64,000 bases of DNA from Sinohyriopsis cumingii (taxonomy: Eukaryota; Mollusca; Bivalvia; Unionida; Unionidae): assembly GCA_028554795.2 (NCBI GenBank), contig CM068827.1, positions 144,615,751 through 144,679,750 of the forward strand. Reading direction: 5' to 3'. Shown here piece after piece: positions 5,143-62,668 of this stretch. Position 1 is the first letter of the stretch. Every line of letters begins with the position of its first letter. Under the pieces are notes generated by a model. That model did not search any database, was not told the origin of the DNA, and saw only the letters and a list, made by a program, of their open reading frames with translations. Both the position numbers and the translations under genes were made by a program.

Positions 5143-5265
5143 TACTGTATATATATTAACATTCACGACCTGTCTGATAGAGAAGTTTTCATTTAAGGAG
5201 GTTTTACTTTCGTATACACATTTATTTTTATCCTCGGCTGCACTATTAATTAAGGTCATGACTCA
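5143..5265 (+). promoter_or_regulatory. Putative promoter elements of the ITIH-like gene
   Basis: A TATA-like string (gtatatatatta) lies near 5145-5157, and a perfect AP-1 consensus TGACTCA lies at 5259-5265, about 100 bases before the first ATG at 5361. Position relative to the long open frame is the only support. Core promoter function is an inference. Confidence 0.3.
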
Positions 5266-5360
5266 TCAGTGAGCGACGGACGAAGCTGCTTAATACATTG
5301 CATCTGCTTGAATCGATTACTGATAAAGTGCTTGCAAACATCGTAATACGAGACACGAAG

Positions 5361-7469
5361 ATGTTTTCTTTTCCAGATATACACATGAAGCTGTTTGCTT
5401 TTACAATACTTGGAATCGTTACATGCAGATCTAACACGCAGTCAATATTGGCCAGGGATCCTTTACACTTCCAATATGCAATATCATCTAACCCAAATAA
5501 TTTGGAGTCGATGAATGAAACGAAAGTAGAGTCAATGACTGTGGAATCCAGTGTCTCCACAAGGTTTGCAGAAGTGATCGTGCGTAGCATGGTTGTGAAT
5601 CAGTTGTACACAGATAACGAGGTAACATTTACTGTCCAGATACCTCAAACGGCGTTCATTTACAATTTCTCCATGTTGATTGGAGATAAGCATTACGTTG
5701 GCCTTTTGATGGAGAAAGAAAAGGCCAAACTAGAGTACTATCATGCGCGAGATCAGGGGCAGTCAGCGGGTCATGTTCATCAGGAAAGACCACTGGTCAC
5801 TGATAGGGATATGGATATCTTCACAATATCTATCAACGTCGCCAGCAAGTCACGTGTCACGTTTGAGCTTGTATACCAAGAACTGCTTGAAAGAAAGGCC
5901 GGTTATTATGAGCAACGTTTTAGTGTCCATCCCAATCAAATACTAGCAAATCTGACGTTAATAGCTAGATACTTTGAACCTCAAGGCTTCTCTGATTATT
6001 ATTATACGAAGCCAGGTTCTGACATAATTTTGAGGGCTTCATCTGAAAATGTTGTAGTTTCTCAATCGCCGGAGAAGTTGCGGATTATTTACAACCCTAC
6101 CATAGAGGAACAGTCCAACATTGATCCACATAAAGGACTAGTTGGGCAGTTTGTTGTTCGATATGATATCACACACAAACTTGACGCAGGTCTTATAGTG
6201 TATAACAAAGATTTCATGGCTCAGTTCTTTTCTCCTCCACCGGTGAAGATTTTGGGCAAGAGTATCGTATTCGTTATTGACATAAGCGGGTCAATGTCCG
6301 GCTGGAAGATGGAACAAGTAAAGCGGGCTATGTTAGCCATTTTGCCCCAGCTTCAGAAAGAGGATTACTTCAACATAGTTCTTTTCGATCATCAAATAAT
6401 CTCATGGAGAGAGGCATCGGTAATGGCATCTGCAGATAACATTGTGTCGGCTTTGGGTTTTACTTGGGAAAGTGTTGTGGCTAGAGGGTCCACCAATATC
6501 AATGGCGCCCTTTTGAAGGTCCTTCGATTATTTAGGATACAAGAATATGAATCTGACAACTTGAGGCATTACGCCAAAATTATTGTCTTTTTGACCGATG
6601 GCGCACCTACATCTGGCGAGACCACCAACGTCAAAGAAATACGTGCTAAAGTCAAAAGGGGTAACAAAAATATAGGTGGAGGGCGCCTTGTTGCTCTATA
6701 TGCGCTTGGCTTCGGCTTTGACATGGACTTTAACTTTCTAACACATCTGTCTTGGGAAAATGGCGGGTTCGCAAGAAGAATTTATGACGCTGTTGATGCA
6801 GGTAAACAACTGGAGGGTTTCTATAATGAAATACAAAGCCCATGTTACGTTGACCTCCAGTTCAGTTACATGGTAGACAAAAATGTTCTCGTTACGAACG
6901 ACTATGACGTGTCAGAAACGTCTCACATGGTGTACTATTGTGGATCTGAAATTGTTGTAGTTGGGAGGTTTGAAAATGAAGTTATTGATGTTGCCGAGAT
7001 AAGAGCAACTGGGGCAGACCAAGCGGTGACGTTGACGTCGACGCCAGTGAGTTCAGATAGCCTGCACATAGATCCCCTTTTCACAGAAAGACTGTGGGCT
7101 TATGCCATGATAAAAGATCTTATCAAGGAGTCAGACATTTTAGAAGACAACACCCAAGCATCAGAGATAAAGTCACGTGCCCTAAATATGTCTTTGAAGT
7201 ACCATTTGGTGACTCCGCTGACATCACTTGTTGTGACAGAAGCACTCAGCGACAGCAAAAGACATCGGGACAGTATAAACCTTGCAGAAATGGGAAGACT
7301 TCCGGGATTAGTCTATCTAACGGCACAGAAAGACATTAGGCAAAACATATATTATCACAAAACTGCTAACTCTGTAGACAGCTCAGCTACCAACTTGGCC
7401 ATAAACGTAATGCTTGAGTCAATTTTTCTTACTGTTTCCATCACCTTAGTTCATGTTAGCTCTGTTTAA
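5361..7469 (+). CDS. Inter-alpha-trypsin inhibitor heavy chain-like protein (VIT + VWA), single exon
   Basis: Seen: one uninterrupted frame of 702 codons from ATG 5361; a second in-frame ATG at 5385 would give 694 residues starting with a good signal peptide (MKLFAFTILGIVTC). Numbering from 5361, a VIT domain covers about residues 60-185. A von Willebrand factor A domain covers about 300-485, with an intact MIDAS: DISGS (D307, S309, S311), the threonine in GSTN and the aspartate in FLTDGA. The C-terminal region has the family signature around SLKYHLVTPLTSLVV, and the last ~18 residues are hydrophobic. Known: ITIH proteins are secreted, and the vertebrate forms bind hyaluronan and stabilise extracellular matrix. 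Inferred: secreted or surface protein with divalent-ion-dependent ligand binding; the hydrophobic tail suggests a GPI-type anchor. Odd: vertebrate ITIH genes have many introns, so an intronless copy suggests a retrocopy or a lineage-specific single-exon paralogue. The frame is intact, which argues for function. No Kunitz domain is present. Confidence 0.9.
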   Translation: MFSFPDIHMKLFAFTILGIVTCRSNTQSILARDPLHFQYAISSNPNNLESMNETKVESMTVESSVSTRFAEVIVRSMVVNQLYTDNEVTFTVQIPQTAFIYNFSMLIGDKHYVGLLMEKEKAKLEYYHARDQGQSAGHVHQERPLVTDRDMDIFTISINVASKSRVTFELVYQELLERKAGYYEQRFSVHPNQILANLTLIARYFEPQGFSDYYYTKPGSDIILRASSENVVVSQSPEKLRIIYNPTIEEQSNIDPHKGLVGQFVVRYDITHKLDAGLIVYNKDFMAQFFSPPPVKILGKSIVFVIDISGSMSGWKMEQVKRAMLAILPQLQKEDYFNIVLFDHQIISWREASVMASADNIVSALGFTWESVVARGSTNINGALLKVLRLFRIQEYESDNLRHYAKIIVFLTDGAPTSGETTNVKEIRAKVKRGNKNIGGGRLVALYALGFGFDMDFNFLTHLSWENGGFARRIYDAVDAGKQLEGFYNEIQSPCYVDLQFSYMVDKNVLVTNDYDVSETSHMVYYCGSEIVVVGRFENEVIDVAEIRATGADQAVTLTSTPVSSDSLHIDPLFTERLWAYAMIKDLIKESDILEDNTQASEIKSRALNMSLKYHLVTPLTSLVVTEALSDSKRHRDSINLAEMGRLPGLVYLTAQKDIRQNIYYHKTANSVDSSATNLAINVMLESIFLTVSITLVHVSSV

Positions 7470-13973: not shown

Positions 13974-14039
13974 GTGCGTATGTATTTAAGTAGGTATATG
14001 GGTAATTGGGGGGACAAACAATAATTACATAATTAAATA

Positions 14040-14330
14040 GGCACCGGTAAGTCTACAAGGAGGGGGCGATAAAGGGACTAACGGAATTGAACATGCACAG
14101 GCTTCTCTGGGGACAGTAGGAAATTTACATAAGATCTATCTTGTCCCCAGACTGCCCTAGAAATTTAGGGACAGATGGGAGTAGTAATAAGGGGCACTTT
14201 ACGGACAATGGAATTACCATTATATGACCACCTGGGTACGTTTACGGACACCATTTAAAACGGACAATTGGAATACCATTACAAAACCCATGGGTACTTT
14301 TACGGACAAGATTTATACGGACAAGGAAAA
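14040..14330. repeat. Iteron-like acggaca repeat region
   Basis: The heptamer acggaca occurs near 14212, 14246, 14264, 14304 and 14319, and again inside the adjoining inverted arm near 14384. Two longer degenerate units, each with a taccatta and a (c)tgggta block, can be seen at about 14200-14310. Variants such as ggggaca and gggacag lie further left. Such dense short repeats beside a polymerase-bearing element could be protein-binding sites or an origin. That role is inference. Confidence 0.5.
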
Positions 14331-14530
14331 TTACAGTCAAAAAGGTCTTAGGCCTGTATAGGGACAAAAGGCTGGGGTGTTATACGGACAATATGAATGG
14401 AACAGGTAAGACAGACAACATATATTATACAAAAAAAATAAATACAACAAACTAAAAAAATTAGGCAAGAAAGCAAATCTTTTGGAGGCATACGATTGGC
14501 CCCGAAAAGGGCCTTTTGTGTTTTGTTAAC
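14330..14530 (+). repeat. Left inverted arm of the palindromic element
   Basis: The outer half (about 14340-14440) carries ggcctgtatagggacaaaag and a ggggtgttatacggacaat block. The inner half (about 14462-14525) carries ggcaagaaagcaaatctttt and a ggcccc...aagggcc hairpin. Both halves reappear in reverse complement, in mirrored order, at 15800-16015. Confidence 0.8.
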
Positions 14531-15104
14531 ATCTTTCCGTTAACTTAGAGGTCATCGCTTAGGTCTTCGTCTCTTCCTCAAGCTTCTTCTGACTGCCGAT
14601 CCGTAGATAAGGACTCTCTTCAAAAAGCCTTGTCTCTCCATATAAATTCTTCTTTTCCAAACGCTCGTATCGGTGATCCTGATAATCGTCCATGATGATT
14701 TCACATACATGGGTAAGTCCGTACGGAACAACATCGACGAAATGAGGGTAGATGATTCTACGTTTGTTCACATCGAACGAAGAGAAGCAGAAGTCTTGTT
14801 ACAGCAAGCGGGGCTATCCAAAGACACATCCTGTGGCATTCCTGAAATGCAAAAATTGCAAGACGTCTTGTCTCGACGCTATACATTGAAAGGGCACTCT
14901 CAAGAAGTGCGCGGACCTTTGTTGTTTCGTGTCAAATACTTCAGAGACGGAAAATACGTTCACGTCTGTCATCACGATGAACATTTCGATGCCATTACCA
15001 GTATCACCGCATTCTTGAGATACAGCTATTAATGTGAAACATGTGACTATGACCAGAAGAAAGGCAATTTCATCTTTTTTAGATTTCGAATGCATGCAAC
15101 TTAC

Positions 15105-15195
15105 TAAAAGAAAATAGGCAAGAAACCAAATCTTTTCGAGGCATATGAGTGGCCCTGAAAAAGGGCCATTGGGTTCCTGTATTTTCTCTATTTCC
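15105..15195 (+). repeat. Third copy of the inner arm, same orientation as the left arm
   Basis: It carries ggcaagaaaccaaatctttt, the ggccctgaaaaagggcc hairpin and the gggttcctgtattttctcta extension. The extension matches the right arm (reverse complement) better than it matches the left arm. Together with the right arm it brackets the 15.2-15.8 kb coding stretch with inverted repeats, a layout that allows segment inversion. Confidence 0.8.
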
Positions 15196-15799
15196 TCCAC
15201 CATTTCCTCACTTTTTCGATGATTCCTTTCTTCGTCTTCTTCTTCATTTTCGTCTCTGGCATCCAGTCAGAATGGTCCATCGATTTAAATTTCTCCTGTA
15301 TCTTGATCCGGTTGTTATTCAATCTATCAAATATCTCTTTTTTTCTGTTGTCTTGTTCCTTTCTCTCGTTTATCCAGGTATCTTTAATTTTTTTCACCTC
15401 CTCTATCATTACCTTTTTCATCATTTATTCTGATATCTATAGCTGGCCTAGTCACCACTTTACAAAGGACCACTCTGTCCAGTGCAATGTGTCTTATAGA
15501 AAGCACCTCACTTTGATTATGTTATCAATTGCTTCCTTCAAGCTTCCTACTCTCACATACGGAGGTTGAATGAATCTTCTTTTCTCCACTTCTTTCTCAA
15601 TCATACCTTGCAACACTTCTCGTCGATGTGGTCTAAGATCCACTGGGCGAAATAGGCTAGCGTGTTTGGTCCATGAAAGATTTTTTCACGTTCTCCAGGA
15701 ATCTTGTTGCAGTGAGGGCAATGACTAAAGATAGGCTCTTGGATGCACTCCTCGTACGCTCGATGAGCCACGCAGAAATTTGGAATGTCAATGCCAGTC

Positions 15800-16015
15800 T
15801 CTTGCGGAAATAGAGAAAATACAGGAACCCAAAGGCCCTTTTTGAGGGCCACTCATATGCCTCGAAAAGATTTGGTTTCTTGCCTATTTTCTTTTAGTAA
15901 GTTGTATACTTGTTTGTATAATGTCTGTTGTTTGTTTTACCTGCTCCATTCCTATTGTCCGTATAATACCCCAACCTTTTGTCCCTATACAGGCCCAATA
16001 CCCTTTTGACTGGGA
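15800..16015 (-). repeat. Right inverted arm of the palindromic element
   Basis: Reverse complement of the left arm: the inner half at about 15800-15900, the outer half at about 15905-16015 ending near ccttttgactg. The mirrored order of both halves makes a long terminal-type inverted repeat. Confidence 0.8.
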
Positions 16016-16734
16016 ATTAGGAAGCGGTTTACGGCTGTGCATGGGACATTAAAAAGGTATTAAACGAAACGTATACTATATTACGATTCACTATGTCCCT
16101 ATTCTAATATTTATCCGATACCACATTGGACAAGGACGCACCTGTGTTGCATGATTGAATAAGTGTTATTTGTAACGAGGGTCCCCGATGAGCGTTGTCC
16201 AGTATACTGTAATTATATGTGCTGGACACGTCTTCCGTGTGAGACCTTCTTAAAAAGACGATGGAAAACTAGTACAGGTAGACTATGCTAATTACGCTGA
16301 CAATACTCCGTTGGATTTGCCAACAACTGCATCATGACGCTGTTCAACAGCGCATGCTATTTTATCGACGGAAAGGAAATCGAAGAATTTCTAGAGAAAG
16401 ACAATTATTGGACTACTCGCCACTTACAGTGAAGTTTACGCGGGGTCCGCTGACCCAGCTATGATGTTCATCAAGGACTCAAACGAGCAGGCAGAACATA
16501 TCCCACACTGCGTACTTAAATTTGACTAAATCGCTTTTCTTGATCCACAACATGCGTCTGTGTCTACCAGATGAAACGCTCGTGCCGCCCCTATACTATA
16601 TCCAAAGACTTTGCTATATTATTTCCAATTTATTACTTTTCGTTGTAACACCTGTAGTTGTTTAGGCATGACATGTAACTCAGCACCATTCCCTATTACA
16701 GATGCATTACTATTATCCTTTCTCATAAGCCCCT

Positions 16735-17384: not shown

Positions 17385-17510
17385 ATCATATATGGATGCC
17401 AGTGGCCATCTTGAAAATCTTGTTATCGCTACTTCTGTATAGATGGACCTCTTATGATGTTTAGTTGAACTTGATCCTAAATAAAAATGGTACTGATCTG
17501 ATGTCCATGT
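17385..17510 (+). repeat. Degenerate copy of an interspersed ~142-bp repeat
   Basis: Contains ggccatcttgaaaatcttgt, then tatcgctacttctgtataga, then ttgatcctaaataaaaatgg. The same blocks recur in order at 18905-19250. I remember similar sequence as an abundant repeat in other mollusc genomes, but cannot verify that here. Confidence 0.55.
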
Positions 17511-40725: not shown

Positions 40726-40929
40726 ATTTGTTCCTGATGACTATTTATTGCTGCGTAAACGTTCCGGCTAAAAAGGAGGAAATAATAGCATTATTTCTAA
40801 TTAAAAGATTTGGAATAATCGGTTCATTTTTGTTATATTTTAGTTTCAAGTTTTTTTTTTATAGCGCTCTGCATCATCTACGAGACAAGGTCACGTGGAC
40901 GTAATGCTGCCCTGTTTGATTGTGAATTT

Positions 40930-43560
40930 GGTATCTTTAAAGGTATGTCTGTCAGTGACGTTACTGATTAATTCGTCTTGGATATGGTATTTTTAAAGGT
41001 ACGTTTGTTAGAGAAGTTAATGAGTAATTCGTCGTGGAGATTACACCTTAAAGGCATGTCTATCAAAGTTTTTACTGAATAATTAGTCTTGGAGATGGCA
41101 TCGTTAAAGGCACGTCTGTCAGAGACGTTACTAGGTAATTCGTCTTGGAGTTGGAGTCTTTAAAGGCATGTCTGCGAGAGACGTTACTGCGTAATTCGTC
41201 TTGGAGTTGGCGTCTTTAAAGGCATGTCTGTCAGAGACGGTACTGAGTAATTGGTCTTGGAGATGGGATCTTTAAAGTCGTGTCTGTCAGATGTTTTTAC
41301 TAAGTAATTCGTCTAGGAGATGGCATCCTTAAAGGCATGGCTGTCAGAGATGTAACTGAGCAATTCGTCTTGGATATGGCATCATTAAAGGTATGTCTGT
41401 CAGATGTTTTAACTGAGTAATTCGTCTTGGAGATTGCATCGTTACAGGTACGTCTGTCAGAGAAGTTATTGGGTAATTCGTCTTGGAGATGGCATCTTTA
41501 AAGGCATGTCTGCGAGAGACATTACTGAGTACGTCGTCGTGGAGATGGCATCTTTAAAGGCATGTCTATCAGTTACTGAGTAATTTGTCTTGGAGATGGC
41601 ATCTTTAAAGGCATGTCTGCAAGATACGTTACTGAGTAATTTGTCGTTGAGATGGTATCTTTACAGGTATGTTTGTCAGAGACGTTACTGAGTAATTAGA
41701 CTTGGGGATGGCATCATTAAAAGCATGTCTGTAAGAGACGTTCCTGCGTAATTCGTCTTGGAGATGGTATCTTAAAAGGCATGTCTGTGAGAAACGTTAC
41801 TGAGCAATTTGGCAAGGAAATGACATCTTTAAGGGCATGTCTGTGAAAGCCATTATTGAGTAAGTCGGTATGGTAATGAAAACTTTAACGGCATGTTTGC
41901 CAGATACGTTACTGATTAATTCCTCTTGGAGATGGCATCGTTAAAGACAAACAAAAAGAGAAACGTTAATGGGTAATTCGTCTTGGAGATGGAATCTTTA
42001 AAGGCATGTCTGTGAGAAACGTTACTGATTAATTCGTCTCGGAGATGGCATTCTTAAAGGAATATCTGTGAGAGATGTTACTGAGTAATTCGTCTTGGAG
42101 ATGGTATCATTAAATTCATATCTGTGAGAGACGTTACTGAATAATTCATCTTGGAGATGGCATCTTTAAAGGCATATCTGTGAGAGACGTTACTATGAAA
42201 TTCATCTTGGGGATGACATCTTTAAAGGCATATTTGTCAAAGACGTTAATGAGTAATTCCTCTTAGAGATGGCATGTTTAAAGGCATGTCTTTGAGAGAC
42301 GTTACTGAGTAATTCGTCTCGTAGATGGGATGTTTAAAAGCATGTCTGCAAGAGATTTTACTGAGTAATTCGTTTTGGATATGGCATCTTTAAAGGCATG
42401 TCTTTGAGACACGTTACTGAGTAATTCGTCTTGTAGATGGCATCTTTAAAGGCATGTCTGTCAGAAACGTTATTAGGTAATTTCTGTTGGAGATGGCATC
42501 TTTAAAGGCATATCTGTCAGATGTTTATACTGGAAAGGCATGTCTGTCAGAGACGTAACTGAGTAATTCGTCTTGGAGATGGCATCATTAAAGATATGTC
42601 TGTCGGAAGTTTTTACTGAGTAATTCGTCTTGGAGATTGCTACTTTACAGTTATGTCTGTCAGAGACGTTATTGAGCAATTCGTCTTGGAGATGGCATCT
42701 TTAATGGCTTTCTGTGGCAGACATTACTGAATAATTCGTCTTGGAGATTGCATCTTTAATGGTATGTCTATCAGAGACGTTACTGAGTAATTCGTCTTGG
42801 AGATGACATCTTTACAGGTATGTCTGTCACAAACGTTATTGACGAGAGATGACATCTTTAAAGGCATGTTTGTCAGAGACGTTACTGAGTAATTCGTCTT
42901 GGAGATGGCATCTTTACAGGTATGTCTGTCAGAGACGCTATTGTGTAATGCGTCCTGGAGATGGCATCTTTAAAGGTATGTCTGTTAGTTACTGAGTAAT
43001 TCGTCTTAGAGTTGGTATCCTTAAAAATATGTCTGTCAGTTAATGAGTAATTCGTCTTAGAGATGGCATCTTTTAAGGCATGTCTGTAAGAGACGTTACT
43101 GAGTACTTCGTCGTGAAGATTGCATCTTTACAAGTATGTCTGTCAGAGAAGTCATTGAGTAATTCGTCTTAGAGATGGCATCTTTAAAGGCATGTCTGCA
43201 AGAAACGTTACTGAGTACTTCGTCGTGGAGACTGCATCTTTACATGTATGTCTGTCAGAGAAGTTATTGAGTAATTCGTCATGGAGATGGCATCTTTAAA
43301 GGCATATCTATCAGTTACTGAGTAATTTGTCTTGGAAATGGTATCTTTAACAGCCTGTCTGTTAGAGATGTTACCGGGTAATTCATCTTGGAGATGGCAT
43401 CTTTAAGGTCTATCTGTGAAATGTGTTCCTGAATAATTTAGCTTGAAGATGGTATATTTAAGGGCCTATTTGAGACGTTACTGAGTAATATGGCTAGGAA
43501 ATGGTATATTTAAGGCTTATCTGCCAGATGTTTTACTGAGTAATTATGCTTGTAGAGGGA
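40930..43560 (+). repeat. Minisatellite, ~56-bp unit, about 45 copies (~2.6 kb)
   Basis: Unit in order: gagtaattcgtcttggagat, ggcatctttaaaggcatgtc, tgtcagagacgttact. Copies vary by point changes and a few short deletions, with the best conservation in the central and right-centre parts and decay at both ends. The unit is not a multiple of three and frames are broken in every copy, so it is non-coding. No unique spacers are present. Confidence 0.95.
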
Positions 43561-48327: not shown

Positions 48328-48644
48328 TGAACTTCTGATAACAGAAAATAATGAAATTGGAGCGCACGGCGTCTGTGTACTCGTAGTACGAGTTAGGTTT
48401 CTCGGCGTTATCAACCTAAAGATATGGGTAAAATAACATTTAATAAGCAATATTGCATTTACACAGGTATATATTTAATTGTAAGATGTGTACAGTACTT
48501 CTACATTCCATGTACAAATGGTATGTTTGCTCTCTTTTAATTGTAAAGCATTATTTTCTTTTATTTTTAATTTCGTTATTTTGACTTCACATAAAACTGA
48601 AATGTACCAAGACTTTCCGAGTGATTCGTGATTTTGGGGTTTTT

Positions 48645-48675
<31 letters not shown>

Positions 48676-48776
48676 TGCTTTTGAAAGCTGGCTTGAAGTT
48701 TTTTTCTCTTGAAAATATTTATTTTCTTGAGCAAAACATACTTTTGTAAGTCAAGAATCATTCTGTTCTGGCTGCA

Positions 48777-48819
<43 letters not shown>

Positions 48820-49559
48820 AGAGATTTTTCCGGTATGTTGTGTGATCAGAAACAGGCCAGGAATAAAGTTAGTATTTCTGGTGTCGATGTCGGCATGAAT
48901 CAAATCATACACATGCAGCAATACCCAGTCTAATAGAATGCATCACGAAAGCGATTCAGCTGTAGATAGATACCCAAAACTGTTGGGAATCGCTATCTAG
49001 GAAAGGCTACGTAAGCAATCACCTTGGAGGCAACGACATATATTTTTGAACATCATTAATATGCAGAAAGTTCTCTGGGTATAGCCTGACACATGAACCG
49101 GGAATATTATTCCCATGTGGGATTTACTACTGAAATATTTAAGGAAATGCAGCTTGCCAAGCACAGATGACAAATTCGGTATTGATATTTCTTGTTGAAA
49201 TTACCGATAGGATATAGTTTGGAGACAAATTCGAAGGACAACCGCTTTAATACTGCATTCTTCACTGAAGCATTGCAGACATAAATGCACATGTTAAGTT
49301 ATGGAAATTTTAAGATAGCCGGAAAGGTTACTTAAACTTGTTTCGAACAAAATCCAAATGAAACAGATATTTTAACCTTTGCTGAACTGATCTGAAATAA
49401 TTGAAGGTAGAGCACAGAAGAATAAATCCTAAAGATCAAAGTGAAATGATCATGAAACAGCCGAAATCGTTATCAGTTGTACTTCGAACAAACAAATAAG
49501 ACTTTCATAGACCAAAGCTGAGCAATGATATTGCTGGACTACTGAAGTATAAAGAATGG

Positions 49560-49792
49560 TTGTTGTTATTGTTGTTGTGGGTTCAACGCTATTTTTCAGC
49601 AGATGGCGGCTAGTATATCTGTTGGTGGAAGAACCCGTTAAAATTCAGGGAAGAACCACAGACGCACGGGAAGCTACGACAAGCTTTCAAAATACCCACT
49701 CTGGCCGAGAATCGAACTAAGCAGAGAGAGAGGTGAAATGTCAGTGATCTGTAAAGGCGAGCGCCTTAGACCAATCGGCCAGCCGGGGTCCC
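49560..49792 (-). repeat. tRNA-headed SINE, family B (copy 3, inside duplicate 1)
   Basis: Reverse complement of the family B body: gttgttgtgggttcaacgct at the tail end, tctgttggtggaagaaccc in the body and ggccagccggggtcc at the head. The homologous copy is at 54039-54274. Confidence 0.8.
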
Positions 49793-50028
49793 TAAAAAAG
49801 AATGGTAAAAAATGGTTCAATCCACAGACGTAATCCTTATCTGAGACATCTTTTTAAAATACGTTTTGAATGTTTACGTGAATATTGTTATTATTATTAG
49901 AATTAGTAGTATCGTTATTATTACTGTTATTTCAGAATATTTCAGCACATTCTTATGACATGTTTAATTTACTACATTTCAACGCTTGATTATACTTAGA
50001 TATAATTTTTTCAATACATATTATTATT

Positions 50029-50275
50029 GCTACTCTTGTGTGCTTAACGACATTATTGAGCACATCACAGGGTACAGACGGATGCCAGTAAAACTGGTGG
50101 AGGAAGAACACGGAAAATCTCTTGGAAGAACCACCGACTCACTGGAACCTATTGGCAAGCTTTTTTGCATACCCACCTTGGCCGAGCCCGAAACTCTAAC
50201 CCACGAGGAAAGAGATGAGTTGGCCGTGTTCGGTAATGGACAGCACTTTGGAACTCTCGGTCATCCGGGGCACCA
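50029..50275 (-). repeat. Older SINE related to family B (copy in duplicate 1)
   Basis: The minus strand shows head ggtgccccggatgaccgaga, body agcttgccaataggttccag and ggtggttcttcc, and tail gtcgttaagcacac. These are the family B blocks, in order, with many differences. It is an older or sister subfamily, duplicated at 54523-54762. Confidence 0.65.
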
Positions 50276-51206
50276 ATACTCTATTGTATTTTCTTATTAT
50301 ACTGGATTTGTTTAACAACGCGTTGTGCTTTGTTTCGGCCATTTATGGTAATGGTTGCAATGAGCTATGTCAGTTTGTTTTATGCATGTGATCATTTTAT
50401 GCCAAAGGAGGTCTTGAGTTATGCCTTTAATCTCCGGATCCCGTTTCACCGTGCCTATAGGTTGAAATTATTTCAGAAGCTCGTCGTCTTTCGTTTCGAC
50501 CTAGAGGCTTAAATAGGGTGTGGGGAAAAATGAGGCGGATATTGATGAAATCTCAGTTACAAAGTTAATAAAGACTAAGCAATATTTTGTATTATCAGTT
50601 ATAAAGAAACATTCTTATTCATTCTTTCTTTTCATATGCTATACACTGAACTTCATTTGTGTATAAATAATTATTCTTGTGTTTTAAAATGTAATAAAAA
50701 GAAATAAAAACTGTTTTATGGACATGTTAATATAGATTTAAAATAGAGCTAATAGAATATTACGCATATATTTAAGTCCCTGCATCATGGCATAACAATT
50801 GCTCCTATGGCTGACATGTTGCTCCAGATTTGGCGAATTTCATGGCGCAAAACAAATGTTTTCAAGGGAGGCCCTGGTTAAATAAATCTAAAACTTCGAT
50901 ACTCCATAGCAGTGCTGTAAACAAAGTAAGAACATATGAGAATCACTTTTGGTACGTTTTCGTACTAGACAATAAATATGGAGGACGAATAACTAAAACT
51001 TAAACAGAATCATACCAAAAAATACTCAGAGATTCGTTGAAAAGAAACGTACACTAATCCGATTTAATGGTGGAAACAATTACGATTTGTATAAAGTTGT
51101 CAATGACAGTCAATAAATTATTCGAAGTTTATTAGTAGAAAATTGCGACAATTTGGTCCTGTGGACCTTCAATGAGGCTTAACAATCCGACTTGTTAAAA
51201 CTCGAG

Positions 51207-51466
51207 TAGCAGAGAGGGCGAACAGACCTTTTGCTGAAACGTAACTTTGGAAACTAAAAACCCCATACGAAAACAATTAAAAAAGGTCACCGACGCTAAC
51301 CCAAAGTATCTAACTTTACCGAGAGTTTCTCTCCAAGAGTCTCTCACGGGCGTTATTTTGTTTTGTTACTTTATTTTTGTCGTTTGTTTCTTCTAAATTT
51401 TGTATGCGCGTTTTCGTTTACCCATATGACGTCTCACTGAGGTCGTGCCCTCTCTGCTGCTATAAT
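51207..51466. mobile_element. Small inverted-repeat element (MITE-like), ~260 bp
   Basis: The left end agcagagagggcgaacagac and the right end ggtcgtgccctctctgct are inverted copies over about 12-17 bases. The interior is non-coding. Known: miniature inverted-repeat elements have this size and layout. It starts only a few bases after the end of direct repeat copy 1, so its insertion, or recombination around it, may mark the junction. The target-site duplication is not clear. Confidence 0.5.
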
Positions 51467-51479
51467 TAGATCATTATTA

Positions 51480-52860
51480 TATCAATAAAGGCACCAGGTG
51501 TTGAATCTTACACAGCTAGATTAGTTCGAGAAAGATTAGAAGCAATCAAAATGTTTGTGCCTATTCGTGTTTCTCTTAGACAAAAACTTCAAGAACGTCA
51601 AGAATCACAAGTTGAATTTGCAGAGGGTACAGCACAATTATTTAAGCCTATTACAAAGATTTCTGAAAAAATGCTGAACAAACTGCAAAGATAGCAAAAG
51701 GAACTAAACAAACAAGAGATATTTTGAAAGATCTTCCAGATGGAATACCTGCTGCTCAACCTCCCCCCCCCATGGAGGAAGAAATACTTGAAGGTATTGG
51801 AAAAGTTCGTACTGAAATAGCCGATGTAAAAAAAGATCTTTCACCTAAACCTGAAGTAAGGAAAGAAAATGTTGCATTAATTAAAAAAATTAAAAAAGGT
51901 GTTATTGAAGAACTTATAAAAATTGAAGAGGAAGCTTTATCTCGTGTTGCATTTGATAGTTATTTTCGAAGGTCAGAAATTTTAAAACCTAAGTATGCTA
52001 ACATAAATACTAATAGTTATTTAAATGGCTATATCGTGTGTATTATAACAAACCCCAAGCTAGAAGTTATGATAAAGTGTATAATAAATATGATAAAGTA
52101 TAATATAAATCCATTGACGACATAAATTAATTTTATTTGGAGTCACATCTTCAACAACAACAGCAACTAAAATCTCGCCAGCAAGAACCTTCCCATTAAC
52201 TTTCTCCACCGCAGCAACAAATAGAACGACAAAAACAACTACAATCTCCTCAACAACAATTACCAGAACTAATTGATGTTAGGAATAAATTTACGTCTAA
52301 AGATATTAGGGGCATCACAAATTTGCCACGTGAAAAGGTAGTAGATATTGCTGCACGTGGAAATCGTCAACTAGAAAAATATGTAAAATCTGAATATCTT
52401 CTTCATTGGAATAATGATTATGATTGGATTAAAGATGTATATTTCATATATATTAACAGACCTGCAGAAGATAATGACCCGCATTTTCGTGATTTTAAAC
52501 GTGATGTCGAACTAAAAAGGAGTGAAAAAGAAGAAGCATTTCGTGACTTATATAGCCCAGGCACTACTGGAAGTAGCTTTTCTGTTCAAGGAAGCGGTCT
52601 TATTGCTTGTCCTGACAGTTTTCTTTCTGACGTAGATAGATTAGAAGTTCCGATTGGAGGAAAACGTACTGGAAATAATTCGCCGGAAATAATTAATGAA
52701 ATATTTGATATTTGTCGAAGATTCTTTACTGGCGGTATTATTGATATCAACGTTTATACTTCTCTCATTGATGAAATTGCTGATGATTATCGACTAAAAA
52801 CAACTAATTAATCAGTATGTAATTAAAAAATGATTATACACAATGCACAACGTGGACCTG
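51480..52860 (+). mobile_element. Unidentified coding remnant, probably from a virus-like element
   Basis: Seen: protein-like plus-strand coding across about 1.35 kb. A first part reads VESYTARLVRERLEAIKMFV near 51.5 kb. A middle part has a proline run (AAQPPPPMEEEILEGIGKV) and a charged helical stretch near 51.8 kb. A glutamine-rich stretch follows near 52.2 kb. A final block of about 160 residues at 52323-52811 has DYDWIKDVYFIYINRP, YSPGTTGSSFSVQGSGLIAC and GNNSPEIINEIFDICRRFF. Codons are strongly A/T-ending. The AGN(N/T)-xx-NE-x(6)-L/F pattern near the end reminds me of uncharacterised Polinton- or adintovirus-associated proteins, but this is a low-confidence recollection. No polymerase, integrase, ATPase or capsid motif is seen. 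It is broken in a few places and is a fossil; the good codon structure suggests a fairly recent one. Confidence 0.45.
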
Positions 52861-53224
52861 TAATGGTCAGGGTAGTAAACGCACGATTGCCAACCTATTG
52901 CAATATTGCATTTACACAGGTATATATTTAATTGTAAGATGTGTACAGTACTTCTACATTCCATGTACAAATGGTATGTTTCCTCTCTTTTAATTGCAAA
53001 GCATTATTTTCTTTTATTTTTAATTTCGTTATTTTGACTTCACATAAAACTGAAATGTACCAAGACTTTCCGAGTGATTCGTGATTTTGAATATCGTATG
53101 TTTTCTTCTTTTTCTTCTTCTTCTTCTTCTTTTTTTGAAAGGTGGCTTGAAGGTTTGCTCTTTAAAATATTTATTTTCTTGAGTAAAATATACTCTTTTA
53201 AGTCAAGAATCATAATGTTCTGAC

Positions 53225-53227
<3 letters not shown>

Positions 53228-53288
<61 letters not shown>
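53228..53288. repeat. (GT)n(GA)n compound microsatellite
   Basis: GT run followed by GA run. Copy 1 of the direct repeat has only a GA run at the matching place. Confidence 0.95.
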
Positions 53289-53292
<4 letters not shown>

Positions 53293-54038
53293 ACCGGTAT
53301 GTTCTGTGATCAGAAAACAGGCCACGAATAAAGTTAGCATTCCTGGTGTCGATGTCGGCATGAATCAAATCATACACATGCAGCAATACCCAGTCCAAGA
53401 GACTGTGTCACGAAAGCAATTCAGCTGTAGATAGACACCCAAAACTGTTACGAATCGCTATCTAGGAAAGGCTACGTAAACAATCACCTTGGAGGCAAAG
53501 ACATATTTTTGAACATGGTTAATATGAAGAAAGTTCTCTGGGTGTGCTGCTGTCATATCAATGGAGCCTGGCACAGGAACCGGGAATATTATTCCCATGG
53601 GGGATTTACTACTGAAATATTTAAGGAAATGGAGCTTGCCAAGCACAGATGACAAATTCGGTATTGATTTTTCTTGTTGGAATTACCGATAGGATATAGT
53701 TTGGGGACAAATTCGAAGGACAACCAATTTAATACTGCATTCTTCACTGAAGCATTGCAGACATAAATGCACATATTAAGTTATGGAAATTTTAAGATAG
53801 CCGGAAAGGTTACATAAACTCGTTTCGAACAAATTCCAAATGAAACAGATATTTTAATCTTTGCTGAACTGATCTGAAATAACTGAAGGTAGAGAAGAGA
53901 CGAATAAATCCCAAAGATTAAAGTTAAATGATCATGCAACAGCCGAAATCGTTATCAGTGTACTGCGAACAAAAAAATAAGACTTTCATAGACCAAAGCT
54001 GAGCAATGATATTGCTGGACTACTGAAGTATAAAGAAT

Positions 54039-54274
54039 GGTTGTTGTTATTGTTGTTGTGGGTTTAACGCTATTTTTCAGCACATGCCGGCTAGTATATC
54101 TGTTGGTGGTAGAACCCGTTAAAATCCCGGGAAGAACCATCGACCCACGGGAAGCTACAGCAAGCTTTCAAACATACCCACGCTGGCCGAGACTCAAACC
54201 CAAACAGAGAGAGGTGAAATGTCAGTGATCTGTAAAGGCGTGCGCCTTAGACCAATCAGCCACCCGGGGTCTCT
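54039..54274 (-). repeat. tRNA-headed SINE, family B (copy 4, inside duplicate 2)
   Basis: Same position within the duplicate as 49560-49792. It shares tail, body and head blocks, for example ggtttaacgctatttttcag. Confidence 0.8.
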
Positions 54275-54522
54275 ATAAAAAGGATGGTAAAAAATGGTTC
54301 AATCCACAGACGTAATCCTTATCTGAGACATCTTTTTAAAATACTTTTTGAATGTTTACGTGAATATTGTTATTATTATTAGTATTAGTAGTAGTAGTAT
54401 CAAAAATTATTATTATTTCAGGATATTTCAGTACATTCTCATAACATGTTTAATTTACTACATTTCAACGCTTGATTATACTTAGATATAATTTTTTCAA
54501 TACATATTATTATTGCTATTGT

Positions 54523-54762
54523 TGTGTGCTTAACGACATTATTGAACACATGACAGGGTATAGACGGATGCCAGTAAAACTGGTGGAGGAAGAACCCGGA
54601 AAATCTTTTGGAAGAACCACCGACTCACTGGAACCTATTGGCAAGCTTTCTCGCAGACCCACCTAGGCCGAGCCCGAGACTCTAACCCGCGAGAAAAGAG
54701 ATGAGATGGAGTGTTCGATAATGGAGGGCACTTTAGAACACTCGGTCTTCCGGGGCACCAAT
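54523..54762 (-). repeat. Older SINE related to family B (copy in duplicate 2)
   Basis: Homologue of 50029-50275, with the same block order and similar divergence from family B. Confidence 0.65.
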
Positions 54763-56461
54763 ACACTAATGTATTTTTTTATTACTGGATTTGTTTAGCA
54801 ACGCGTTGTGCTTTGTTTCGGCCATTTATGGTAATGGTTGCAATGAGCTATGTCAGTTTGTTTTATACATGTGATCATTTTATGTCCAATGGGATCTTCA
54901 GGTATGCCTTAAATCTCCGGATCCCGTTTCACCGTGCCTATAGGTTGAAATTATTTCAGAACCTCATCTTTCGTTTCGACATAGAGGCTTTAATAGGGTC
55001 TGGGGGAAAATGAGGCGGATATTGATGAAATCTCAGTTACAAAGTTAATAAAGATTAAGCAGTATTTTGTATTGTCAGTTAGAAGGAAAAATGAAGTCTC
55101 AGTGACATTGTTCATAAAGACTAAGCAGTATTTTGTATTATCATTTATAAGAAACATTTTTATTTATTCTTGCTTTTCATATGCTATACATTGAACTTCA
55201 CTTGTGTATAATGGTATAGTTATATTTATTAATAATTATTCCTGTGCTTTAAAATGTAGTAAAAACATATAAAAACTGTTTTATTGACATGTTTCTATAG
55301 ATTTAAAATAGAGCTAATAGAATATTACGCATATATTTAAGTCCCTGCATCATGGCATAAAAATTGCTCCTTTGGCTTACATGTTGCTCCAGATTTGGCG
55401 AATTTCATGGCGCAAAACAAATGTTTTCAAGGGAGGTCCTGGTTAAATAAATCTAAAACTTTGATATTCCATAGCAGTGCCATAAACAAAGTAAGAAAAT
55501 ATGAGAATCACCTTTGGTACGTTTTCGTACTAGAAAATAACTATGGAGGACGAATAACTAAAATTTAAACAGAATCATACCAAAAAAGCCTCAGAGATTC
55601 CTTGAAAAGAAATGTACACTAATGCGATTTAATGGTGGAAACAATTACGATTTGTATAATTTGTCAATGACATTCAATCCATATTCGAAGTTTATTAGTA
55701 GAAAATTGCTACGATTTGGTCCTGTGGAACTTCATTGAGGCTTAACAATCCGACTTGTTAAACTGTTAACTCGGGAAGGTGAGTAAGTGATTATAAAAAC
55801 TATTACTTCGTAATAAATCGAGTTGAAATAAATTATATTACGTTGACCTGACAATTTACATACTTGATCTAGATATGAAATAAGTGAAAGTACATGATGG
55901 CTTTTGAATAGGTTTCAATTTTCATCATTGCGCATAAATATATACGTATCAACCACCCAGAGAAAGCTAATATACAGATACAGGGTACATAATTTGTAGT
56001 CTGTACTCAGCGGGTAAACGGCAGTCATCGCCTTGCCTTCACGCACCAGTCCACATTCCATCACGACTAAGGACATAAAATTTTGCCACAAAGTCGGTGG
56101 TGTATGCACTCGTGCGTAGCTAACACACTCGGATGTCCATCTAGTAATTAATTCTCATCTCTCTACACAGACATTCTGGATTCCTGTTAAAGAAATCAAG
56201 ACATAGATGATTAATTATATAGAATTACAAATATACACCCAACAGAGCGGATAGTGCTATCCCTGGATTCTAAAGGAGAGCGTTTGATAATACTAGACAG
56301 AATTAATATTTGATACAAATCATACATGTTATAGAACTCTCTAGCATGTATGATAGTAGTCTTAATATTAAATATGAATTCCGCCTAATATTAACGAGCA
56401 TTCTCCCATTCTCCTGTAGAGTCCAGGGGTAGCAGTTTCTGCTCTGTTTGGTGTAGATTTG

Positions 56462-56924: not shown

Positions 56925-59314
56925 GCCGTGACGTTTCTTACCGCAAATCAAATTCAATCGGAATGTCGGTATGTGTGTAGCTAAATATAGAAGAGATACA
57001 TACAGAAGGGTACCCACAACAACAATAGAAACCATAACAACAAGCAAGCAACCGTATTATTATACTGCTAAAGTGTTCTAAGCAATGTAATTATGATAAG
57101 AACTAAAATTTCGGTGCATTTTTTGCTATCTTAATTATTTTAATTGCATTTATTATTTCAAATTGCATTTATTTTTGTACTTGGTTTTGTAGACTACATT
57201 CCACCCTTCTATAAATTCACAATCGTTAACTCTGACAAACCTGATCCGAACATAACATAATATTTTGAATCAAACATAACAAAAGTCTGAAAGTACATCA
57301 GTTGACATGTAATATTTGTCCGCATCATTATTATTTTATTTCCATGTGATGAACTATTTTAACATAATACTTCAAAGTGTTCTCTTTATTAGAAAAACAA
57401 ACCACGTATACTAGGCCCCGGATGACAGTGAACTATAACAAGAAAAAAGAAGTTTGATTGCAAGAGTTCTGCAGGAAGTATTGATTGAAGAAAAATATTT
57501 GGTTCAGCACACATTATTTAAACAAAATTCTTGTTAAATTGTGTCCCAATAAGAGGAATAAAGTCAGACTTTTATACTTCATTCAGGACTTATCGAGACG
57601 AATAGAAAGTTTGCAATGTGTAAAGTGTTATGTGTATTTGGTTTCATTTATATCTGATTTAGTTGTTTGTAAGTTTTAATATCTTTTGATTTTTTTTAGT
57701 TCATTATATGTCAAAATAATGTAGTTTTGTTTACAAGGAATTCGATACTGTATCCAGAAAATAGTTTGACCTTGACAGTTAAATTTTGTAAACACAAAAG
57801 GCTGACCTGGTTTCCGACCTTAATTCACAATTAATGAAGGTCACGTCAATAATTTTAAAAAAAATATTTTATTTTTATTGTGGGAATAATAAGGTTGAGG
57901 TCGAAGCTGTGTTGGATATGTGACACTCTACTTGTAAATAGATTTTAGTGAAGTAAACAACGTTTGTTTTATATATTGTATTCTTTGAGTAAAATGATTG
58001 GTTCTTGTCAGGGCCATACTGAGAGTACAAGATGTAAACATAGACACCTGACCCTTTTCCCGGCATCTGTTTTACACAATATTCAAGTTTTAAACCACTG
58101 CTTAGAGAGGGAGAGCTCAGAATTGGGCTTCTAAACACTGGGACGTAATGGTGTTTCTTTTGTTGTGTCATTTTGGGAATTACATTTTGATGTTTATTCG
58201 AATTATTTGGATTCTAAAGGATTAATTCGTTTCTATGGAAATATTTTGAGTGCTCATGCAGAATTCTTGAACAAAAACATTTCTTTTTATTCGGATTACC
58301 AAAAGCGATTGTTATGTCTTGTGGTTCTACAAGGAACTGTAGACTTCAACACTGTACATGATATAACATACGTCATCGCCTTCCATCTTGGATTATTGTC
58401 GGGACATTTCAATATCAGGACTTCTTAAATTTTATTCGTGGATTATTCAGGAATTATTTTTGGATTTGATTCTTAAAACCTTAAGTTCTTTTTTTATTTC
58501 ATTTTTACAGTATTTTCCAGGGAAATAAATGCTTTGTAAACTGTTTCAAAGCTTGCTGTCTTCACTCTTTCTTGTGTTGCTGTTTATTCAAGCCTAAACA
58601 CGTAACAAAAGAAAATCAATTTAATATTCAAATAGTAAGGAAAAGAAAAATCTACATTGATCACACTGTCACACAGTCTTGAAATGTAAATATTCAAAAT
58701 AATCAAGTAGTGTTGCATATGTATCAAAACAAAAATATTTGGATTGACAATAAATCCAATTGATACCTATGCATAATGTATTGAAAAAGAAATGTAAAAC
58801 CAATGAAAGTTTGTTCCTTTATTTCAACATATCTCCAAACTCTCTTTGTAAGTTATTTGGGATGAGAACGTTGTAAGCGAAGATCGTTTCCTTTACTCTT
58901 TCATTATCGATGTAAAACAAAACTCATAATTAATAATGTGTATTTTGTCTGAATTTTTTAGCAGTGTGTTTAGCAATCACACATACTGATATTTTAAAAT
59001 GTGCGCCAATATGAATAAGTTTGGCTAGGTAAGATGCTTTTCTGCACCATCAGCTGTGTTACAATCATGAACTAAAAATAAAGTAGTTATGCCTTGATGG
59101 ACATCAACCAGTATTTCTAACAACTTAACTAATTTTGTGTTCTATAACAATCACAATTCCATCTTTAATTAACGATTTTCTACTTCATGATTTAGTGAAA
59201 ATACAGCTTTTATAAAATTGGTCACCCAAATTATCACGTCCTGGGGGTCGGTTGAGTATATTTATCCACAGGTCACAAACAGTTTTCTTTTATATTTTCT
59301 TTACAGTGCGATTT

Positions 59315-60990
59315 GTTTTCCAATGCAACTTTTTCAAGTATCTTTTACAGTGTACTCTGCATTTGTTGATCCGTTGCTTGATCTGTATTTTGCTAAAGTT
59401 GAAAATACGTGACAATATTTTTTTAAAATAATTAAATTTCTTTTGACATTTTCCACACATACGACATAGCTTTACATCAATTTTATGTAGACAATTGATT
59501 TTCAAATTATCGTTCTTTTTTCAGAGTTAACATTTAAGTCATATTACACCAAACCTTTGTAAGATATTTAAATCCTGATTTATTATCTTTCTATTATTTT
59601 CAAAATAAAAGAAATAAAAACAATAACAACAAGATTATAAAACAAACCTCACAGGATTTTGAAGAAAAAAAGCAAAAATATTCACACAGAAAAGAAGGTT
59701 AAAGGCAACATATAAAACGTCCAGATCAATTTGCAAAAGATAAAGCCAAACATAGGAAAAATGAACATCCAATGTATACAAAACCAAACGATACTGAATT
59801 CAGACTACATTAATGAATGAAAGAAATTCAAACGCGACCATCTATTATTTGATAAGTAGTGGCATATTTATCTATTTCATCTTGTTTATTTTGTGGAAAT
59901 ATGATGCTATTTCCTTGCAAAGTCTTCAGCATCCATTGGTAACATTTGTTTTATTTAACTGTGAACAATAAACTAACACACAACAGAAAGATAGGATATC
60001 GGAGACTGGACGAAATCCATCAATGCTGGTGTCATTAAAACGTTACCAGGTTTACCTGTTGTATCTGCATAAATATTGATATCGTGACTGAAACTAAAAA
60101 GACCGTCGACCCATACTTTATTATGCAAAACTGAGTTCTGCTGTTCCTGTTGCATGCATCATTCTTATGGAAAATCTATTGAAGTTGACAGTTGGTTTAC
60201 AATGAATCATCTATACTGAATAAGTTATGAATGCAATCATTCCAGTTTCTTTCAGCAAGTTCACAGACTGATAATAGCGCATAGACCTTTACCTGACAAA
60301 ACTGTTATTCAGTGGATGTCTCCATAAAGTTAAAGTTCATTGAAAAGCGTTTTGGAATAGAATTAGTACTACATTTCCAACAGAAACCACATTTTAAAGG
60401 CGAATTTACTACATTCGAAAAAGAAATGAATTTGATCTTCCCTAAGGGACAAATATTTAATTCTGCATCTTCTTGAGAATTTAAAACAAAAGAATTTAAT
60501 ACTTTTTACGCGGTACGTGTTATCGTAAATTTATTTACATAATATTGCATATTTACTTTGAAATCTAACAGAAATTCAAGTACTTTGCTTCTTGTTGTGT
60601 GTTCTATTTATTATTCAGCCTTAGGAAGACAAACAAAATGAATATATAATAAAATGAAGTTACCACGTTTGTATAGGAAAATTTGATCTCGTTTTTCTGA
60701 CCTAAATTGCACTTCTAAGGTCCTGCAGTATAGTTCAGAGCGCCTCGTTCATATTTCCCCTACAAACGCAGTAACCTATACTTATTGGTACGATCCTTCC
60801 AATCAATAAGTAAGATGTGAGTACACATTCATTGCACTTGTAATGGATCTTAGTTTTTGTAACAAGAAAGTATCTCACGTTTTAGAAGCTGTAATTTGAT
60901 AACACCATATATGTCGACGTACTATAAATACAAAACTCATCGTACGTAGAAAAATGCTAAGAGATAACTGCTCTAGTCACAACACAACAT
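59315..60990 (+). repeat. Head-to-tail duplication, unit 1 (~1676 bp)
   Basis: From gttttccaatgcaacttttt to ctagtcacaacacaacat. It is followed without any gap by unit 2, which begins gttttccaatacaacttttt. Identity is about 99 percent by eye, with a handful of substitutions and one- or two-base indels. No gene or transposon motif is seen inside. Confidence 0.95.
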
Positions 60991-62668
60991 GTTTTCCAAT
61001 ACAACTTTTTCAAGTATCTTTTACAGTGTACTCTGCATTTGTTGATCCGTTGCGTGATCTGTATTTTGCTCAAGTTGAAAATACGTGACAATATTTTTTT
61101 AAAATAATTAAATTTCTTTTGACATTTTCCACACATACGACATAGCTTTACATCAATTTTATGTAGACAATTGATTTTCAAATTATCGTTCTCTTTTCAG
61201 AGTTAACATTTAAGTCATCTTACACCAAACCTTTGTAAGATATTTAAATCCTGATTTATTATCTTTCTATTATTTTCAAAATAAAAGTAATAAAAACAAT
61301 AACAACAAGATTATAAAACAAACCTCACAGGATTTTGAAGAACAAAAAGCCAAAATATTCACACAGAAAAGAAGGTTAAAGGCAACATATAAAACGTCCA
61401 GATAAATTTGCAAAAGATAAAGCCAAACATAGGAAAAATGAACATCCAATGTATACAAAACCAAACGATACTGAATTCAGACTACATTAATGAATGAAAG
61501 AAATTCAAACGCGACCATCTATTATTTGATAAGTAGTGGCATATTTATCTATTTCATCTTGTTTATTTTGTGGAAATATGATGCTATTTCCTTGCAAAGT
61601 CTTCAGCATCCGTTGGTAACATTTGTTTTATTTAACTGTGAACAATAAACTAACACACAACAGAAAGATAGGATATCGGAGACTGGACGAAATCCATCAA
61701 TGCTGGTGTCATTAAAACGTTACCAGGTTTTACCTGTTGTATCTGCATAAATATTGATATCGTGACTGAAACTAAAACGACCGTCGACCCATACTTTATT
61801 ATGCAAAACTGAGTTCTGCTGTTCCTGTTGCATGCATCATTCTTATGGAAAATCTATTGAAGTTGACAGTTGGTTTACAATGAATCATCTATACTGAATA
61901 AGTTATGAATGCAATCATTCCAGTTTCTTTCAGCAAGTTCACAGACTGATAATAGCGCATAGACCTTTACCTGACAAAACTGTTATTCAGTGGATGTCTC
62001 CATAAAGTTAAAGTTCATTGAAAAGCGTTTTGGAATAGAATTAGTACTACATTTCCAACAGAAACCACATTTTAAAGGCGAATTTACTACATTCGAAAAA
62101 GAAATGAATTTGATCTTCCCTAAGGGACAAATATTTAATTCTGCATCTTCTTGAGAATTTAAAACAAAAGAATTTAATACTTTTTACGCGGTACGTGTTA
62201 TCGTGAATTTATTTACATAATATTGCATATTTACTTTGAAATCTAACAGAAATTCAAGTACTTTGCTTCTTGTTGTGTGTTCTATTTATTATTCAGCCTT
62301 AGGAAGACAAACAAAATGAATATATAATAAAATGAAGTTACCACGTTTGTATAGGAAAATTTGATCTCGTTTTTCTGACCTAAATTGCACTTCTAAGGTC
62401 GTGCAGTATAGTTCAGAGCGTCTCGTTCATATTTCCCCTACAAACGCAGTAACCTATACTTATTGGTACGATCCTTCCAATCAATAAGTAAGATGTGAGT
62501 ACACATTCATTGCGCTTGTAATGGATCTTAGTTTTTGTAACAAGAAAGTATCTCACGTTTTAGAAGCTGTAATTTGATAACACCATATATGTCGACGTAC
62601 TATAAATACAAAACTCATCGTACGTAGAAAAATGCTAAGAGATAAATGCTCTAGGTACAACACAACAT
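60991..62668 (+). repeat. Head-to-tail duplication, unit 2 (~1678 bp)
   Basis: Partner of 59315-60990, ending ctaggtacaacacaacat. The near identity implies a very recent event, or an unmerged pair of alleles in the assembly. Confidence 0.95.

Follow-up and report, generated by a model that had tools for sequence, protein, structure and literature searches.

Introduction

Polintons (Mavericks) and adintoviruses possess TIRs that begin with AG, a 6-bp duplication on both sides and a type-B DNA polymerase. An rve-type integrase, an A32-like ATPase, a C5-type protease and a double-jelly-roll capsid protein also belong to the features of Polintons. In histone pre-mRNA, SLBP binds to a stem-loop, U7 pairs with a purine box, and the cleavage yields a non-polyadenylated mRNA. 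To our knowledge, no animal genes other than the replication-dependent histones regularly use this stem-loop to end their mRNAs.

In this study, we analyzed a 64,000-nt stretch of the genome of Sinohyriopsis cumingii (the window). The feature under study lies on contig C4 of a 2.9-Gb genome, and its relatives are other loci in the same genome (numbered with L). The relatives share with Polintons and adintoviruses the AG-starting TIRs and the 6-bp duplication (in the locus pair L015/L030) and the type-B polymerase. The integrase, the ATPase and the protease gave weak matches, and a double-jelly-roll capsid gene is present in the same genome. Unlike the described Polintons, the elements carry histone-type stem-loops after small genes and in the TIRs. 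With replication-dependent histone genes they share the 6-bp stem, the 4-nt loop, the A-rich 5′ flank, the ACCCA-like 3′ flank, the purine box 3′ of the stem-loop and the short distance from the stop codon. However, the genes are those of a mobile element, no histone family matched their products, and the stem-loops in the window score below the Rfam cut-off.

Six histone 3′ UTR stem-loops have been listed for Polinton-like virus and virophage genomes (PMC12220804), and the portions of that paper used here do not comment on their position and role. Compared with the cases in those portions, the stem-loops described here occur at thousands of places, many of them at gene ends, in one animal-sized genome. 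Our literature search, which did not reach the main adintovirus paper, recognized no description of histone stem-loops as Polinton gene ends. Polinton genes that end in the manner of histone genes, at thousands of places, appear to be new. Taken as a whole, we consider it probable that the window carries a decayed, internally deleted and partly inverted Polinton (Maverick), and that its relatives end the mRNAs of their small genes via the host SLBP/U7 system. The palindrome in the window matters only as a lead to this stem-loop.

Results

Arms and contents of the palindromic element

An earlier note on this DNA had described two inverted arms of about 200 bp, with a third copy of the inner arm between them, as parts of a compact fossil element. 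In the self-comparison of the window, the inverted outer arms (14334-14516 and 15831-16012) were 85.4% identical over 185 nt (E 1e-53). The third inner-arm copy (15094-15195) was 97% identical to the right arm (15806-15907) over 102 nt (E 7e-44). A direct copy was also found (14442-14516 and 15094-15170, 84%), and the left inner arm was 83-84% identical to the other two. These similarities are far beyond chance. The arrangement of the arms was confirmed, and the arms are part of the element. The features are summarized in Table 1.

Table 1. Positions and strands of the features around the palindrome in the window.
Feature	Position	Strand	Evidence
Outer part of the left TIR (polymerase end)	14334..14441	+	With the inner part, 85% to the reverse of 15831-16012
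Inner part of the left TIR with histone-type stem-loop 14474-14518 (-) and purine box	14442..14530	-	RF00032 25.5 bits, E 3e-4
Stretch between the polymerase-end TIR and the polymerase	14531..14772	-	Frame broken; matches L015, L014, L019
Block 1, N-terminal region of type-B DNA polymerase	14776..15051	+	80-86% DNA identity to L015, L031, L033, L034
Next piece of the polymerase gene	15045..15099	+	87-91% to L015, L031, L033, L034
Middle copy of the inner arm, stem-loop 15126-15172 (-)	15094..15195	-	RF00032 27.2 bits, E 7e-5; 97% to 15806-15907
3′ part of gene B, small charged gene	15182..15622	-	Frame broken; adjoins TIR-type arm in other copies
Block 2, following part of the polymerase N-terminal region, opposite in orientation to block 1	15604..15805	-	85-89% DNA identity to L015, L031, L033, L034
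Right inner arm, stem-loop 15829-15875 (+)	15806..15907	+	RF00032 28.9 bits, E 1.7e-5
Outer part of the right TIR	15910..16012	-	Outer end absent or diverged beyond recognition
Double-jelly-roll major-capsid-type fragment	16184..16499	+	tblastn from L021 2-1306 (-), E 1e-12

The left TIR and its inner neighbor are similar to three other loci (14401-14740, 84% to L015 6991-7331; 14401-14772, 83% to L014; 14416-14674, 84% to L019). More diverged sequence of the left TIR may extend back to about position 14063, where there is a weak alignment with the L015 TIR from 6653. The minus strand of 14531..14772 possibly represents a small gene reading outward. TIRs are present in the window copy; their outer ends and a target-site duplication were not found there.

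The segment bracketed by the inner arms holds, besides block 2, the 3′ end of a different gene, which we call gene B. Gene B of the window matches, for example, L010 (77.7%) and L021 (77.0%). The stem-loop of the middle arm lies about 19 nt past the gene B stop. Of 20 loci fetched around further copies of the arm, 16 have gene B next to it (15 when L011, a duplicate of L010, is left out). In addition, the ORF at L021 2-1306 (-) matched PF21738 above the Pfam cut-off (E 2e-20). This capsid ORF and the fragment in the window are homologous, and neither was found inside one TIR-bounded element. Elsewhere in the window, 52548-52784 (+) resembles the C-terminus of a 634-aa open frame of L021 (1834-3735, minus strand; 56% identity), and is possibly another Polinton piece.

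Polymerase blocks and their homologues

The two blocks that the earlier note had read as neighboring N-terminal parts of a type-B polymerase lie on opposite strands (block 1, 14709-15029, +; block 2, -). In L015, L031, L033 and L034, the homologous pieces are arranged on one strand in the order 14776-15051, 15045-15099 and the reverse of 15805-15614, with 80-89% DNA identity. About 340-350 nt are deleted in the window ahead of 15045..15099, and the two alignments overlap there by 3-7 bp. In L037, the homologues of both blocks lie within one open frame of at least 400 aa, and block 1 is 79% identical to it in amino acids. In L031, three pieces downstream of both block homologues matched DNA_pol_B_2 (PF03175) in colinear order (profile positions 126-207, 212-347 and 375-439; E 1e-3, 9e-6 and 0.01), all three below the Pfam cut-off of 25.8 bits (best, 25.2). 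When the genome was searched, many of the best 150 of 23,549 candidates for block 1 and of the best 150 of 19,177 for block 2 were in open frames of about 1350 aa. Since these lists contain the best candidates only, they give no copy number for either block. On the basis of the single frame in L037, the colinear PF03175 pieces in L031 and the open frames throughout the genome, the blocks are assigned as neighboring N-terminal parts of a type-B polymerase.

Thus, the reading of the blocks in the earlier note held through the homologues in L037 and L031. With the blocks of the window alone, the Pfam search detected no relevant family (two chance-level matches for block 1), and the matches to PF03175 came from the pieces downstream of the homologues in L031. 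IMG/VR searches with block 1, block 2, the capsid ORF, the polymerase alignment and the histone stem-loop pattern yielded no relatives; therefore, the comparison is confined to one species.

Relatives bounded by TIRs

The neighboring stretches L015 and L030 together span a 12,355-bp element. Its TIRs are 467 nt long, 89% alike and begin with AG (AGTAGTG...), and the 6-bp duplication CCTATT is present on both sides. A second TIR-bounded element is composed of L024, L033 and L035, and its TIRs are 76% alike over 262 nt.

An rve integrase was detected as a weak match in L027 77-481 (PF00665, E 0.0017, 19 bits against a cut-off of 32.6). No rve match in Pfam was obtained for two L030 pieces or for L024 8721-9332; the integrases of L024 and L030 were named by eye from the weak L027 match. 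Pox_A32 (A32/FtsK-type ATPase) was detected in L030 4406-4702 (E 5e-4) and Peptidase_C5 in L016 434-1096 (E 0.04), both below the cut-off, as were most Pfam matches of single pieces. L033 2310-2636 had no Pfam match.

The gene order runs from the polymerase end to the integrase end. The small genes X, Y and B (L024) and E (L030) lie between the integrase and the TIR, and G (L033) lies before the polymerase. None of X, Y, E, B and G matched a Pfam family above the cut-off, and no histone family matched their products. The best match among them was MAP7 for Y (E 7e-4, below the cut-off), in a charged low-complexity stretch. We had considered that gene B and the polymerase belong to two types of elements (a split genome). 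This idea was dropped, since L024/L033/L035 and L022/L031 hold both in one series.

The element in the window is almost certainly of Polinton origin. The relation to elements bearing a type-B polymerase and the fossil state, both claimed in the earlier note, are borne out: the copy is decayed and internally deleted. What remains of it is the left TIR, the N-terminal pieces of the polymerase, the right TIR and, from the last gene (gene B), the 3′ end.

Histone-type stem-loops in the window and its relatives

The inner arm contains a histone-type 3′ stem-loop, a feature absent from the first reading. Three matches to Rfam RF00032 (histone 3′ UTR stem-loop) were obtained in the window, each below the cut-off of 34 bits (Table 1), and a scan of the whole window at the cut-off gave no match. 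Two of the three have a 5-nt loop instead of a 4-nt loop. Since these copies are below the cut-off, we call them histone-like remnants. Their strands fit transcripts that run outward through each TIR or leave gene B.

In the relatives, one scan of 15 loci gave seven RF00032 matches above the cut-off, namely L016 (2), L019 (2), L017, L021 and L023, and L035 brought the number to eight. Matches below the cut-off were found at internal gene ends in L016, L019, L036 and L024. The stem-loop is present in both TIRs of L015/L030 and of L024/L035. It is also found on the coding strand behind several small genes, about 10-42 nt past their stop codons. L016 possesses four successive stem-loops (1811, 2611, 3409 and 5007, +), each after the end of an ORF; one of them is above the Rfam cut-off and three are below.

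L036 contains three consecutive genes, each of which has a perfect copy of the 19-bp motif GGATGTTTTCCTTCACGTC, then an ORF and a stem-loop (29.4-31.0 bits, below the RF00032 cut-off). The motif occurs upstream of Polinton small genes, in L036 at 355, 1219 and 2371. With up to three mismatches, it was found 37 times in the window and L009-L035 and not at all in one mononucleotide shuffle. By eye, a TATA-like stretch is often seen 3′ of it. The motif is likely to be a common promoter element of Polinton small genes.

The conserved flanks of the stem-loop are asymmetric, with an A-rich 5′ side, ACYCA on the 3′ side and a purine box about 13 nt further on. The purine box (GAAAAGA type) is conserved in an alignment of the stem-loops (A1). 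The stems differ between genes (GGCCCT/AGGGCC, AGCCCT/AGGGCT and GGTCCT/AGGACC), and the pairing is kept. It is highly probable that the stem-loop is of the histone type.

Position and conservation of the stem-loops

A model built from 21 stem-loops (R1) gave 46 matches in 27 sources, many outside TIRs; the 21 training stem-loops, including 14474-14518 of the window (80.7 bits), match by construction. For the following comparison, two matches in L011 (the duplicate of L010) were removed and L024 6998 was added, giving 45. Of these, 15 had an ORF of at least 100 aa ending within 60 nt upstream, compared with 3.8% for 20,000 random positions. The remaining 30, many of which are in broken copies, have no such ORF. 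In L036, all three stem-loops lie shortly past a stop codon.

In alignment A2, 96.5% of the cells were paired and 14 cells had two-sided changes. Both values were reached in none of 500 shuffles, which take no account of relatedness, and A2 itself had been fitted to the structure. Two of the five measures, the pairs with two-sided change (2) and the further pair types (7), were reached in 242 of 500 shuffles. In alignment A1, one cell had a two-sided change, and the observed pairing was reached in 31 of 500 shuffles. Since the pattern for A1 required all six pairs, the A1 test is biased and A2 weighs more, though A2 leans to structure too.

Genome-wide, two patterns of stem-loop plus purine box were searched with up to two mismatches; the TIR-type pattern (36 bases) was found at 2,986 places and the X/Y-type pattern at 17,393 places. 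The reversed control patterns of both types gave no match in the genome.

AATAAA was not depleted near 24 hand-picked stem-loops, all with recognizable genes or TIRs: 7 of the 24 had it, compared with 16% of random positions. When ATTAAA was allowed as well, the count was again 7 of 24, compared with 25%. Since AATAAA is not depleted, ordinary polyadenylation may also occur.

Proposed 3′ end formation

By analogy with histone pre-mRNA, host SLBP would bind to the stem-loop and U7 would pair with the purine box. Cleavage just 3′ of the stem-loop would then produce non-polyadenylated mRNAs. Such mRNAs would be stable in S phase, when the replication of the element itself would also run. We regard 3′ ends of the SLBP/U7 type in living copies as fairly likely, and the small-gene mRNAs would then probably be coupled to S phase. 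A wider proposal, to which we would give an even chance, is that of an abundant Polinton family whose accessory genes are built as histone-like units (upstream motif, short ORF, and stem-loop with downstream element). Their mRNAs would be replication-dependent, non-polyadenylated and SLBP-bound, and the expression would be tied to S phase and escape poly(A)-based control. If so, a virus-like element would have a direct route to time its expression to DNA replication, and SLBP/U7 processing could be studied outside histones. Poly(A)-selected RNA-seq could miss such transcripts, and the activity of Polintons may be underestimated.

The hairpin might instead be an element-specific DNA palindrome or terminator, serving the integrase, the terminal protein or replication, that only resembles the histone stem-loop. 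Its presence in both TIRs of L015/L030 and L024/L035 and the scores of the window copies below the Rfam cut-off are in keeping with this. However, the hairpin also ends internal genes on the coding strand at the short distance past the stops given above. Its flanks show the conserved asymmetry of histone pre-mRNA, which a palindrome does not need, and the eight matches in relatives pass the Rfam cut-off. We therefore consider this explanation unlikely.

It is less likely still that a real stem-loop, acquired a single time from a host histone gene, has spread as a passive relic without a role. The very large number of element copies alone would multiply any passenger sequence, but the differing stems of different genes keep their pairing, and the loop and flanks are conserved among diverged copies. 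Processing of the small-gene mRNAs by SLBP and U7 is thus the explanation that we prefer.

Orientation of the blocks in other loci

Of all the other loci fetched, five contain both blocks (L015, L031, L033, L034 and L037), and in each of the five the two share one coding strand. The same was found for both locus pairs common to the two lists of the best 150 genome matches (C11:88.78M and C10:124.28M). Since the blocks lie on one strand in other loci, the layout in the window is best read as a local inversion and not as a defined element. We consider that the window copy very probably arose by an inversion at this locus. The compact element with a layout of its own, as claimed in the earlier note, was not borne out; the copy is an ordinary fossil, a locally scrambled Polinton.

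The 20 loci fetched around other arm copies were matches 3-22 of the best 40 scored among 331 candidates, which involves a selection bias. Only L015 among them has both blocks, with no arm between them; therefore, these 20 loci test the layout once. The earlier note had suggested a search for further copies in which the arms are arranged alike. Two direct arms followed by an inverted one were found in L019 and in L015 together with L030, but at neither place do the arms enclose polymerase blocks on opposite strands. In L019 two of the arms form a tandem; in L015 the first one is part of a neighboring gene-B unit.

The changed orientation is shown by the comparison, and the inversion event itself is what we infer. 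The simplest ancestor would have the order TIR, block 1, block 2, gene B end, arm and TIR. The part from block 2 through the gene B end would have been inverted, leaving a 102-bp piece with the gene-B stem-loop on both sides. Inversion with staggered breaks, or copying in repair, can leave such flanking duplicates. The inner arms differ at 3 of 102 positions (K2P 0.030), and the TIRs have diverged by 0.134 (K2P, 180 sites). Since the divergence of the inner arms is lower, the doubling of the arm looks younger than the insertion; the dating is rough, as it is based on three differences, and gene conversion could lower the value. The earlier note had further suggested that the inner arms bracket an invertible segment. 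The orientation of the segment has indeed changed, but the arms seem to have resulted from that change and do not look like a permanent switch.

An assembly error at a repeat could also place the blocks on opposite strands, and the region is repeat-rich with joints at the arm ends. However, three differences separate the inner arms, so that neither can be a simple copy of its partner, and we regard such an error as very improbable. The least probable is a defined compact element in which the inner arms act as recombination sites and flip the 15.2-15.8 kb part: the arms, 97% alike, do bracket a segment inverted relative to other copies and recur in the same order in L019 and in L015 with L030, but the five other two-block loci have one coding strand and no arm between the blocks, gene B and the arm form one unit in most arm loci, the polymerase and gene B are broken here, and the arms of L019 and L015/L030 enclose other sequences.

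Other observations in the window and the genome

At C8:71.07-71.20 Mb, units of about 4.27 kb are repeated in tandem (at least 30 places). One unit of this array (L038, C8:71,076,900-71,081,400) carries an RF00032 stem-loop above the cut-off (38-39 bits) after a non-histone ORF of 95 aa from the first Met. Two copies of GGATGTTTTCCTTCACGTC, with three and four mismatches, lie on the same strand. Apart from one weak match, L038 was not similar to the Polinton loci. The array was considered as a host histone cluster and rejected, since the L038 ORF is non-histone and the histone genes lie elsewhere. Histone gene clusters were observed at C310, C531, C14:13.10 Mb and other places, with repeats of about 8.27-8.29 kb, many of them on small contigs.

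In the window itself, a 735-aa open frame with VIT and VWA domains, of the inter-alpha-trypsin-inhibitor type, was found at 5262-7469 (+). A tandem array of about 2.6 kb at 40920-43559 has a period near 56 bp, as estimated from self-match offsets, with units about 75% alike. In addition, there is a 1.68-kb tandem duplication (98.9%) at 59314-62668 and a 2.2-kb direct duplication (90%) at 48447-55762.
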